Source: a bacterium
GTDB taxonomy: Bacteria > Verrucomicrobiota > Kiritimatiellia > CAIVKH01
Direction: 5' to 3'
Length of the DNA stretch: 44,250 nt
Assembly (NCBI GenBank): GCA_030432155.1
Contig: JAUIHQ010000005.1
Coordinates: 1-44,250, forward strand
Of the stretch, positions 14,043 through 31,002 are shown piece by piece. The position numbers were made by a program, and so were the translations under genes. Every line of letters starts with the position of its first letter. Within the stretch, counting starts at the first letter, position 1. The notes under the pieces were generated by a model, which saw only the letters and a list, made by a program, of their open reading frames with translations, searched no databases and was not told the origin of the DNA.

Positions 14043-14153
14043 CCACCGTAAAGACAATCGGTAGGGCCGATTCATCGCGGCGGGACCCCGGTGTACCTGT
14101 CCCCATGTCGGGCGGACTCGGCCCTTCGGCGTAAATTTCTGTATCCATGGTGA

Positions 14154-26854: not shown

Positions 26855-27862
26855 ATGACTGTTTGTGACATGCATGACGACCACGAGATCTTTCTGCCGT
26901 TCCGGCCTCGCCGAAACCGGTCGACCGACGCGGTTCGCCGCTTGGTGCGAGAGACCGTTTTGACTCCATCCGATCTGATTCTCCCTCTGTTTGTCTGTGA
27001 GGGGAAGAACCGGAAAGTCGCGATCAAGTCCATGCCCGGTTGTTTCCGGTTGAGCCGGGATTTGATTGTGAAGGAAGCGAGAGCAGCGCGGAGGCTTGGC
27101 ATTCCGGCGGTAGCTTTGTTTCCTGCTCTTCCTGATGCGAAGAAGGATCGGAGGGCCGGCGAGTCGGTCAATCCGGATGGGCTGTTACAGCAGACCGTTC
27201 GGGCATTGAAAGACAAGGTCCCCGAGCTGGCAGTGATCACCGACGTCGCCATGGATCCCTACTCCAGCGATGGTCATGACGGATATGTCGAGAATGGCCG
27301 GATCGACAATGACAAAACCCTCCCCATTCTCGCCGCGATGGCCGTCTCCCAGGCTGAAGCCGGAGCCGACATCGTCGCGCCCTCGGACATGATGGACGGC
27401 CGTGTTTCCTACATCCGGGAAGCCCTGGACACCCACGGCTATACGGGGACAGGCATTTTAGCGTACTCCGCGAAATATTGTTCGGCTTTCTACGGTCCCT
27501 TCCGGGAAGCGCTGGATTCCGCTCCGCGCGGCGGAGATAAAAAGACGTATCAGATGGATCCTGCGAATGCGGTCGAGGCCTTGCGGGAAATCCGGCTTGA
27601 TGTGGAGGAGGGGGCTGACATGGTGATGGTCAAGCCGGGGATGCCGTACCTGGATATCGTTGCTGCCGCCAAAGAGGCGGTGGATGTTCCCGTGGCGGTG
27701 TATCAGGTCAGTGGGGAGTATGCGATGATCAAGGCGGCGGACAAGCTGGGCTGGCTATCCGGAGCGGACGCGATGATGGAGAGCCTGGTTGCTTTCAAAC
27801 GGGCCGGGGCGGACATGATTTTGACATATTATGCCGCAGAAGCTGCGTCCGCGCTCTCGTGA
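26855..27862 (+). CDS. hemB: Delta-aminolevulinic acid dehydratase (porphobilinogen synthase)
   Basis: 335 residues from ATG 26855, or 330 from ATG 26870. It joins two 5-aminolevulinate molecules to porphobilinogen for haem and related tetrapyrroles. The two active-site lysines lie in YSAKYCSAFYGPFR and MVMVKPGMPYLD. The metal-site segment reads DVAMDPYSSDGHDG, without the cysteines of zinc enzymes, so the Mg2+-dependent type is expected. FFCEG-like LPLFVCEGKN and AVALFPALPD are standard. It overlaps the next gene by one base (TGATG). Confidence 0.96.
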   Translation: MTVCDMHDDHEIFLPFRPRRNRSTDAVRRLVRETVLTPSDLILPLFVCEGKNRKVAIKSMPGCFRLSRDLIVKEARAARRLGIPAVALFPALPDAKKDRRAGESVNPDGLLQQTVRALKDKVPELAVITDVAMDPYSSDGHDGYVENGRIDNDKTLPILAAMAVSQAEAGADIVAPSDMMDGRVSYIREALDTHGYTGTGILAYSAKYCSAFYGPFREALDSAPRGGDKKTYQMDPANAVEALREIRLDVEEGADMVMVKPGMPYLDIVAAAKEAVDVPVAVYQVSGEYAMIKAADKLGWLSGADAMMESLVAFKRAGADMILTYYAAEAASALS

Positions 27863-28218
27863 TGAAGGTCGCCGTACTCGGAGCCTCACCAAAGCCTGAC
27901 CGGTATGCCTACCGAGCCTTTCGTATGCTACTGGAACATGGCCATGAACCGGTTCCGGTGAATCCAGCCTACGAGGAGATCGATGGAATCCCCTGCTGGC
28001 CAACCATCACAGATGTAAAATCACCTCATACGATTACCGTTTATCTGGCACCGGCCCACCTGCATAAAATCTTGCAGGACATCATCAGCGCCGCACCAAC
28101 ACGAGTCATTCTCAATCCGGGAACCGAAGATCCTGCCATCAAAAAAAGCCTACGAGAAGCCGGAATCCCCGTCACAGAAGCCTGCACCCTCGTCATGCTT
28201 CGAACCGGCCAATTCTAA
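27862..28218 (+). CDS. CoA-binding domain protein (YccU-like)
   Basis: 118 residues from ATG 27862, overlapping the hemB stop. It is a single Rossmann domain: MKVAVLGASPKPDRYAYRAF (dinucleotide loop GASPKPDR), VPVNPAYEEIDG, TVYLAPAHLHKIL, ILNPGTEDP. These match the CoA_binding_2 family, which binds CoA-like nucleotides with no defined reaction. Its end marks the left edge of the RAYT island. Confidence 0.88.
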   Translation: MKVAVLGASPKPDRYAYRAFRMLLEHGHEPVPVNPAYEEIDGIPCWPTITDVKSPHTITVYLAPAHLHKILQDIISAAPTRVILNPGTEDPAIKKSLREAGIPVTEACTLVMLRTGQF

Positions 28219-28285
28219 CTCGGCAGGGACAGGCAAGTTGGTTCGATTCATTCTGTTATACATATCGTGACAGGCGTTTCTCTTG

Positions 28286-28423
28286 ACGGGCACAATGCCC
28301 GTATGTCGTTGATGTAAAGCGGTTTGTGGGTGGCGGCTGCAAGGCGTGGCTGCCTCGGGATGGTGACAGGTGAATTAGGATGAAGTGACTGATGGCAAGA
28401 GATTTTGCCTGTCCCCATTTGGG
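28286..28423 (+). repeat. Left copy of RAYT-flanking direct repeat
   Basis: It begins with the hairpin ACGGGC-ACAAT-GCCCGT (28286-28302), runs through GTGGGTGGCGGCTGCAAG and TGAATTAGGATGAA, and ends TTGCCTGTCCCCATTTGGG (to 28423). It is clearly alignable with the right copy, with scattered differences. Confidence 0.75.
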
Positions 28424-28574
28424 CGTGGAAGTTTCTACCGGGGGGGGCGCCTCCATAGACTAAACGGATGAGGCTGCCGTCTGTTTCTCGCTGGTTTTCA
28501 GGTATCAAGCAAAGACCAACACTTAGGCTTTGACGACACGCACAAGCCTGGACCATTGATTTTGTGAATACCTA

Positions 28575-29453
28575 CTAAGTCGTTTGCAGATGCTTGTAGC
28601 AGTAAAGTGAGCCGGGCCCACGGATCCTCGCTGCCCCGGTCTTTTTCGTTCGCAGGTGTGGTCGGTATCGAGCTGCTGTATCAAGCACAAACAACTCCGA
28701 GCCGATAACAAGACCGTCTACCCAGTACCGCACCCGTCGTTCCAGCCACGGCTTCCGGACCTCCGAGCCTGGCCTCGATTCGTTAAACACGCTCCAGAGG
28801 CTTTCAAACAATTGGTCAAGGTTGGCATAGGGGTAGATCTCGGACAGGATTGGGAGCAGAATGGACCGAAGATGGAGGGCAAACGGATGCATACCCGTGG
28901 CTGCCCATGCGCCAAAACTGCAAAACCTATAGTCGGAGGGGTGTTTGACCATCCGGGCCCTGACCGGATTCATCTCAATGTATTGAATACACCCCCATGC
29001 CGCCCGCCCGTCCCCTAATAGCGTGTGCTTGAATCGCTCCGCCCATAGGGATCCGCGCCGGTGCACCGGACGGGTCCGGTTGAACCAGCAGGTGAACTGT
29101 TGTTGTAGATCATGCATCAGCCAACTGATATCCACCATTCGGTGGGCATGAACCTGAACCATTGGGTCGTGTGGATCAAGCCGCCGGCCGGGATAGTAGG
29201 CTTCATATCTTCGGCATACCTCTTCAGCCGATGGCAAGCTTCCCGGGGCATACACGACAAGGTGAAAATGGTTGGACATGACCACGTACGACAGCGGTTT
29301 TACCAGATAATACTCATCCAGCTTGTGCAGAAGTTGAACGAACTTCTCCTTCTCGGCCCTGCCAAAGGGGCGGTCGGAAGACGTTCCCGACACGCGGTTG
29401 TACAGGTGATAGATCATTGGTTCACCAATTACTTTGATTCTCGCTCTACGCAT
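28575..29453 (-). CDS. REP-associated tyrosine transposase (Y1 family, RAYT)
   Basis: 292 residues from ATG 29453, which has GAGGTG four bases upstream; the open frame to 29477 is not needed. This single-strand nuclease cuts and joins REP-type hairpins. The histidine pair His62-His64 lies in VMSNHFHLVVY (HxH form of the HUH motif), and the catalytic Tyr158 lies in CIQYIEMNPVRARMV. SLWAERFKHTLL between them is also typical. The C-terminal extension (about 190-292) is longer than in E. coli TnpA-REP. Active-site residues are intact, so it may be functional. Confidence 0.88.
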   Translation of the reverse strand: MRRARIKVIGEPMIYHLYNRVSGTSSDRPFGRAEKEKFVQLLHKLDEYYLVKPLSYVVMSNHFHLVVYAPGSLPSAEEVCRRYEAYYPGRRLDPHDPMVQVHAHRMVDISWLMHDLQQQFTCWFNRTRPVHRRGSLWAERFKHTLLGDGRAAWGCIQYIEMNPVRARMVKHPSDYRFCSFGAWAATGMHPFALHLRSILLPILSEIYPYANLDQLFESLWSVFNESRPGSEVRKPWLERRVRYWVDGLVIGSELFVLDTAARYRPHLRTKKTGAARIRGPGSLYCYKHLQTT

Positions 29454-29555
29454 AAAACACCTCGTGGTTACATACACAGGAAGAATTCAGGACCCATGAT
29501 TTCCGGCCGAATTGTGAAAAAATGTGAAAAAATCCAGAATAGCCAAGTTTGAACC

Positions 29556-29695
29556 ACGGGCCCCGCGCCCGTATATTGTTGATGTACAGCAGGTTGTGGG
29601 TGGCGGCTGCAAGCCGTATCTTCCCGGGACGGGGACCGGTGAATTAGGATGAAATGAAATGGCTGATCAAAAGAATTTGCCTGTCCCCATTTGGG
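29556..29695 (+). repeat. Right copy of RAYT-flanking direct repeat
   Basis: It has the same order as the left copy: hairpin ACGGGC-CCCGC-GCCCGT (29556-29572), GTGGGTGGCGGCTGCAAG, TGAATTAGGATGAA, and TTGCCTGTCCCCATTTGGG to 29695. The hairpin stem is identical in both copies while the five-base loop differs, so the stem seems to be the conserved feature. Confidence 0.75.
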
Positions 29696-29856
29696 AGACG
29701 CCCGAGAGGGAGACACCCGAGAGGACCATGCAGGATGGTTTACCTGTCACCAACTTGAGGAGATTGAAACAGGTTGTTCGCGCGATCGTGTCACGGAAGA
29801 TGTTTCACCTGTCCCTCTTGAATGAGGAATTGCCTGTCCCCCTCTGGAAGGGGTGG

Positions 29857-31002
29857 TTAGTCGGTCTGGCCGTATGTCATTCTGGTTCTGGTCATGAGGG
29901 GGGTGGTTGCCTGGTTTATGAGGACGGTGTGGATGGTTCCGTCTCCCTGGATGGGGGGGCCGGTGTTTGTGTAGTCGTAGCCATTTGTCGAGATCTGTAT
30001 CTGGTATTCTGTGCCGGGTCGGGTTTCAAAAACGGCATGACCATTGATGACATCCGCCGGCGTGATATCAGGCATGACTGTGGGACCGTACATCATCCAT
30101 TGCCATTCTTCATGGAATGTATCTGATGTCGGCAGGTGATAGTCGACAACCATGGAGCCATGGGCATTGGTTGTGCTCACGTCGGTCATGAATGTATGTG
30201 ATCCGCGGTATGGAGCATGTTCGGTATCGACGAGAACCTGCGGGCCAAAATCAAACAGCCCAAGTTCCTCCCAAAAGGCCACGAGCCGATTTGAAGAAAC
30301 CAGCTCATCGTCATAATGGCCAAAGCCGAAATACCGTTCCGGCTTCGTCATACCCGGGGAAGACACCCAGTCCGCCGGACGGTTACCCGTGAAATACCAA
30401 TCCATGGATGCAAACATCATGACTCGCTTCACCGGCCGCACTTTCCCGATCATGGCAGCATGACCGCCACCCTGGGAATGACCGGCAATTGTGACATTCG
30501 ACCAGCGTACTCCCCCGGACCCATCCAGAAACTGTGCCCAATCAAAACTCGGATACTGGGCGTCAAGATAAGTCAGAAGTTTGATGAGGCGATTGTCGAT
30601 ACTGTCGGTGCGACTCACATCCACCAGGGCGGTTCGGTTCGTTCCATCGAAAACTTCAAGCCGTACGTTCTCATGACAGGTAGAGTCTGTTTGCAAAGCG
30701 CAAAGATTGTTTACCGCATCGCCATTCACATACATCAAGCCAACCGCATAAAATCCTTGCCGCGCAGCTTCCTGCACAATGTTTGTATAGACAATCGGTG
30801 CACCATCGGTGCCGGGAAGAAACACAAATAAATCATGGCCGGAAGGAGACAGGCCCGGAACACATATCGTGTGGACGTTGTTGTACTGGGAAATATTCGG
30901 GTCAGTTGTGCTCGGTGAGACAACAACACAAAGCTGGGCGCTTCCCGCCATAGTCCCCAGGTACAAGCCGACCCCAAACGGTATACAGTGCCAAAATTTC
31001 AT
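29857..31002 (-). CDS. Secreted alpha/beta-hydrolase
   Basis: 381 residues from ATG 31002. MKFWHCIPFGVGLYLGTMAGSA is a signal peptide in the usual order of charge, hydrophobic core and small residues. The nucleophile elbow GHSQGG (in VTIAGHSQGGGHAAM), an early FVFLPGTDG oxyanion strand and a late His in EHAPYRGSHTFM fit the alpha/beta-hydrolase fold. The C-terminal ~70 residues (GTEYQIQISTNGYDY) resemble the small beta modules found at the ends of secreted PVC proteins. A GTG start at 31059 would add 19 residues before the signal peptide. It follows the K+ channel gene on the same strand. Confidence 0.75.
   Translation of the reverse strand: MKFWHCIPFGVGLYLGTMAGSAQLCVVVSPSTTDPNISQYNNVHTICVPGLSPSGHDLFVFLPGTDGAPIVYTNIVQEAARQGFYAVGLMYVNGDAVNNLCALQTDSTCHENVRLEVFDGTNRTALVDVSRTDSIDNRLIKLLTYLDAQYPSFDWAQFLDGSGGVRWSNVTIAGHSQGGGHAAMIGKVRPVKRVMMFASMDWYFTGNRPADWVSSPGMTKPERYFGFGHYDDELVSSNRLVAFWEELGLFDFGPQVLVDTEHAPYRGSHTFMTDVSTTNAHGSMVVDYHLPTSDTFHEEWQWMMYGPTVMPDITPADVINGHAVFETRPGTEYQIQISTNGYDYTNTGPPIQGDGTIHTVLINQATTPLMTRTRMTYGQTD

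Follow-up and report, generated by a model that had tools for sequence, protein, structure and literature searches.

HuH enzymes cut one strand of DNA and stay on its 5′ end; the 3′-OH left by the cut may serve as a primer for synthesis or may attack the link to the tyrosine (PMC8266576). Among the transposases that work in this way, TIRYTs are tied to an inverted repeat of consensus GGGGWSAS that is single, dimeric or clustered, as stated by Di Nocera et al. (2013, PMC3733652), and most of them are placed in subclass 2.1 of the TnpA-Y1 enzymes by Quentin et al. (2018, PMC6006769). The locus considered here is located in a window of 44,250 nucleotides (the whole stretch of DNA that was analysed), which is one entire contig (C369) of an incomplete genome, 86% complete and made of 3.89 Mb in 466 contigs. 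We lean, by a little, towards understanding positions 28226-29841 as a TIRYT-like transposon, old and degenerate, with ends marked by inverted R-GGGACA-[GC], the direct repeats around its gene being two left-end copies that the element would have made of itself by nicking, synthesis and resealing.

The transposase and its setting

The transposase gene, on the minus strand, lies between a gene for a CoA-binding protein (27859-28218) and an unrelated gene ending at 29857. Its product matches Pfam Y1_Tnp at 24.5 bits, just above the curated cut-off of 23. The HuH motif (NHFH) and the conserved tyrosine are present, H62, H64 and Y158 being invariant across 25 aligned proteins, and the initial annotation was right in considering the active site intact. 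The predicted structure is of good confidence (mean pLDDT 87); the fold closest to it is that of E. coli TnpA-REP (4er8, E 3e-8), with IS200/IS605 transposases coming next. A YIEMNP motif is found in the protein, and alanine follows the conserved tryptophan, at a position where REP-reading enzymes have glutamine or glutamate. The same annotation had named the gene a RAYT. What stands of this name is a Y1/HuH transposase tied to repeats; the canonical REP type does not stand, in view of the absence of GT[AG]G, of the inverted GGGACA ends and of a score of 52.3 bits against the REP equivalog of NCBIfam, REP_Tyr_transpos, below its cut-off of 80. The transposase is a TIRYT-like Y1 enzyme, not a canonical REP-type RAYT.

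Most of the relatives that the protein search brought in are metagenome assemblies, under the names Kiritimatiellae, Lentisphaerae, Verrucomicrobia, PVC group or Akkermansia. Two genomes, G035 and G183, stand far above their neighbours in related Y1 transposases, for which the search reported 50 matches or gave hundreds of first-look candidates.

Direct repeats and inverted motifs around the gene

The features of the locus, in the order of their positions, are as follows.

28226-28232, plus strand: outermost downstream motif GGGACAG, inverted
28267-28273, plus strand: downstream variant GTGACAG, inverted
28286-28423, minus strand: second left-end unit, oriented like the first, on the downstream side of the gene and itself gene-less
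28286-28302, no strand assigned: hairpin ACGGGC-ACAAT-GCCCGT
28363-28369, plus strand: variant GTGACAG within the second unit, inverted
28409-28415, minus strand: motif GGGACAG of the second unit
28416-28423, minus strand: outside tag CCCAAATG of the second unit
28575-29453, minus strand: Y1/HuH transposase gene, 292 aa (ATG at 29453; GTG at 29477 possible)
29470-29535, minus strand: leader, resembling the leaders of relatives (CCGGAAAT..TTCTT), limits approximate and judged by eye
29556-29695, minus strand: gene-linked left-end unit (tag, motif, inner stretch, hairpin)
29556-29572, no strand assigned: hairpin ACGGGC-CCCGC-GCCCGT
29681-29687, minus strand: motif GGGACAG of the gene-linked unit
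29688-29695, minus strand: outside tag CCCAAATG of the gene-linked unit
29744-29750, minus strand: upstream variant GTGACAG
29809-29815, minus strand: upstream motif GGGACAG
29834-29840, minus strand: outermost upstream motif GGGACAG

The direct repeats of about 140 bp reported earlier on both sides of the gene are indeed there: self-BLAST of the locus aligns 28286-28423 with 29556-29695 over 143 columns, at 81% identity (E 2e-30), a similarity far beyond chance. Each unit carries the hairpin as it had been described, with identical ACGGGC/GCCCGT stems and 5-nt loops that differ (ACAAT vs CCCGC). The two also share TTGCCTGTCCCCATTTGGG, at 28405-28423 and 29677-29695, which had been taken as the sequence in which the units end; the sequence and its places are correct, but on the gene strand it is the beginning, so that each unit opens with it, as CCCAAATG-GGGACAGGC, and closes with the hairpin. 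Eight bases before GGG are common to both units (CCCAAATG), while the ninth differs (T or G). Just outside the gene-linked unit, at 29693-29722, two tandem copies of a 15-bp unit (GGGAGACGCCCGAGA) are found.

Further copies of the motif are found on both sides, inverted about the gene and reaching 28226 and 29841; those which come after the downstream unit (28267-28273 and 28226-28232) resemble a right end. The relatives are built likewise: read on the gene strand, GGGACA[GC] lies upstream of the gene and its complement downstream. Upstream, the first 250 bp (8.75 kb of sequence) hold 43 motifs and the following 250 bp hold 19, each bin beyond having 0-3; downstream, the complement peaks at 250-500 bp, with 28 occurrences in 8 kb, the other bins having 1-6 each. 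Control motifs of reversed order gave 0-6 per bin. Inverted repeats of the GGGGWSAS type, GGGGACAG upstream and its complement downstream, are thus present on both sides of the gene in the window and in its relatives. Judged by its sequence, the locus belongs with the TIRtrons and not with the REPtrons, because these inverted motifs match the repeat described for TIRYTs, a known kind. A single GGGGACAG motif, without partner or array, is also seen in an intergenic position at 14097-14104 of the window.

A shared tag outside the copied ends

Many relatives carry several copies of the motif on one side, and the bases located just outside the motif are identical between these copies: GAAGTTA four times at locus L077, GGAGGAGCA three times at L080, GGCGAAG three times at L081, and both GACAGTA and CAAGCATA many times in genome G326. 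We counted this feature over 65 genes, hence 130 sides, leaving out the partial matches L103, L104 and L109-L113 and taking each contig once. The motif is present on 88 sides and in at least two copies on 50, of which 27 share at least five outside bases and 23 have no shared tag of 5 nt; when copies were drawn from different loci, the corresponding number had a mean of 0.97 and a maximum of 6 in 2000 draws. Between upstream and downstream copies of one locus, the tag is shared in 1 case out of 30. For 105 neighbouring pairs the shared length is bimodal, with 60 pairs at 0-5, 41 at 6-11 (31 of these at 7-9) and four longer; lengths of 22, 31 and 54 reflect whole units that were plainly duplicated again. 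The inner parts of the 41 units sharing 6-11 nt range from 3 to 99 nt, with a median of 16. Among 85 outermost copies, about 99% have A or G immediately before GGGACA, and the rest of the tag is without strong consensus.

Since the pattern was first noticed in the same data that served for the count, 40 loci which had not been read before were fetched. Some of them are partial matches or lie near a contig end, and six of the genomes (G005, G043, G162, G196, G261 and G373) had been met earlier, although none of the loci belonged to the first count. Their 13 neighbouring pairs share 0-2 bases in five cases and 8-13 in eight. A test that makes no use of the motif, looking in these 40 loci for local exact repeats of at least 14 nt, found them upstream in 8 of 36 flanks and downstream in 2 of 39, and in none of 40 gene bodies. 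Seven Paraburkholderia loci, looked at by eye, display no clear array. In the window the tag is common to the two long units and the other motif copies do not share it; this pair, whose tag is 8 nt and whose unit is about 1.27 kb long, fits the rule of the family, though it is a single old case.

Self-copied ends thus recur in the family, as arrays of a 7-9 nt tag, the motif and a variable length of the end, at either side of the gene, the part copied sometimes extending hundreds of bases inward: L081 and L085 hold tandem copies of the left end with the start of the gene, 368 bp long at 98% identity and 223 bp long at 96%, respectively. Plasmids of Skermanella rosea and of S. mucosa have the locus in common, its flanks being 94-98% and its gene region 93% identical, with arrays that differ; they stand around the motif GGGGTCAG, and an older 78-bp end copy is also present. 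A Pseudomonas aeruginosa plasmid has, by eye, an end copy of about 70 nt. The arrays are therefore not confined to one phylum, and they change. A shared tag on a terminally copied end seems undescribed in the open literature that was searched, where the name TIRYT occurs in two papers.

As for the origin of the tag, nearly identical elements with different tags are found at L149a and L149b, two elements with the same inside in one genome, and likewise at L150 and L151. Because copies with the same inside carry different tags, the tag is usually flanking host DNA, and we rejected in general the idea that it is a fixed part of the element. Locally this idea is favoured: G065 has similar tags at five loci, the outside bases on left and right mirror each other in R. 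rubrum and in Iodobacter, and in these three cases the tag may belong to the element. Empty sites were also looked for and none was found, searches of plasmids and phages yielding only distant relatives or few records. At L193, on an Iodobacter fluviatilis plasmid, one stretch of host sequence stands on either side of the transposase element and looks like a duplication of host DNA around it. The TIRYT genes of the plasmid loci L164, L165, L168 and L193 adjoin toxin-antitoxin genes (Doc, MazEF and HipA annotations).

Clusters without a transposase

In the genome to which the window belongs, the pattern GGGACAG-N6-36-GGGACAG occurs 16 times, vs three for the pattern read backwards. Of the seven places read in addition to the window, five hold clusters without any transposase hit in the vicinity (C15, where the cluster lies at a contig end, C144, C152, C228 and C342), and the two on C225 and C247, which by eye look like coding sequence, were set aside as chance. 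The cluster on C152 (L187, at about 12.0-12.3 kb) resembles a mini-element, with inverted GGGACAGGCACC ends about 60 bp apart and, on one side, three copies of a 25-bp unit of tag and end. Those on C144 (L186) and C342 (L188) are made of seven to ten motif copies in one orientation, intergenic and without a transposase nearby.

A possible mechanism and its alternatives

The mechanism that we infer from these arrays would begin with the transposase nicking one strand 7-9 nt outside the motif and becoming linked by its tyrosine to the 5′ end. From the free 3′-OH, displacement synthesis would proceed through the tag and the end over a variable length, after which the enzyme would seal the flap so displaced onto the newly made 3′ end. 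Every round would add a tandem unit whose outer boundary is fixed and whose inner boundary varies. For the window this would imply a unit of about 1.27 kb, whose second copy would later have lost its gene, unless a gene-less mini-element landed there; the reading of the window assumes one or the other, deletion or mini-element, and its repeats are old (81%). As a general statement, it is a plausible idea, which we put at somewhat short of an even chance, that TIRYT transposases nick at a fixed 7-9 nt outside GGGACA and reseal after variable synthesis, a repeatable terminal copying that stacks tagged partial ends, occasionally copies the start of the gene and could seed gene-less clusters elsewhere.

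Replication slippage or unequal exchange, which could multiply short end repeats without any transposase, appears rather unlikely to us as an account of the arrays. Tandem repeats change easily, and the units duplicated again as wholes are what such processes would leave, but nothing in them would set the outer boundary at 7-9 nt across loci that are unrelated and whose tags are unrelated too, and they do not sit well with exact local repeats that are found in upstream flanks and in no gene body. We consider it very unlikely that short fragments of the ends inserted again and again, with a target duplication of 7-9 bp each time. This would yield the same succession of tag, fragment and tag, but whole elements lack such a duplication, which was rejected as a general feature: their two sides match over at least 4 bases at 2 of 29 loci (L084 and L149a), although this exceeds the control mean of 0.24. 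Duplicating the target is not a known habit of Y1 enzymes (PMC2817692).

For the window itself, the downstream unit might be a gene-less mini-element that moved beside the gene, the matching tags then reflecting a target preference. The succession of this unit and of inverted motifs like a right end would suit such an event, and a structure of this sort exists on C152 of the same genome, but the identical 8-nt tag of the two units, when tags usually differ between loci, and the lack of any other copy of the unit in the genome make it unlikely. It is barely credible that the 140-bp unit is a long composite REP moved by a REP-type RAYT, along the lines of the initial annotation. The hairpin in both units and the intact HuH motif and tyrosine would be in keeping with it, but the unit was found neither elsewhere in its own genome, as far as its 86% completeness goes, nor in 57 relatives, where nothing appeared but a scrap of 29-30 nt in each of two genomes. 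The search for the unit without the transposase thus gave the outcome named beforehand as contrary to its mobility, which is not supported. A REP reading was also discarded for the hairpins at 28286 and 29556, which have no GT[AG]G foot on either strand and belong to a unit that is not dispersed, and the hairpin was dropped as a hallmark of the family after 15 leaders were folded, none comparable being evident in the other 14. Both 140-bp units make better sense as two old copies of the left end of the element.

Should terminal copying be what happens, it would provide a transposase with a route to make families of REP-like repeats without ordinary transposition, and it would bear on how TIRYT and RAYT enzymes multiply the repeats that surround them. 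The tag suggests how clusters devoid of transposase, such as those of C144, C152 and C342, might arise, and its nearly fixed length at many unrelated loci leads to a concrete guess at the position of cleavage, hence to a testable reaction.

Comparison with known systems

The locus shares with the RAYTs and their REPtrons, as represented by E. coli TnpA-REP (4er8), the catalytic core and the fold, but it lacks hairpins tagged by GT[AG]G, and no dispersed REP family was found for it. With IS200/IS605 elements (IS608, ISDra2) it has in common the HuH fold and no general target duplication; these elements have subterminal hairpins and no terminal inverted repeats, whereas the motifs of the family of the window are inverted and stacked. 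With subclass 2.1 of TnpA-Y1 (PMC6006769), whose motifs are NH[YF]H, W[EQ] or FQ, and YIELNP, it has in common NH[YF]H, a YIExNP motif, a long C-terminal part and no REPs. The window protein departs from that portrait in having alanine in place of the glutamate or glutamine that follows the conserved tryptophan, in its length (292 aa, against a median of 238 aa) and in its C-terminal part, where the subclass features a helix-turn-helix for which the protein gave no Pfam match up to E 0.5. The TIRYTs and TIRtrons of PMC3733652 are alike in their Y1/HuH transposase and in an inverted motif, fitting GGGGWSAS, that is found on both sides, single or clustered; the outside tag in common, an outer boundary that is fixed beside an inner one that varies, and the long copies of the left end are features of the present family that do not figure in the available parts of that description.
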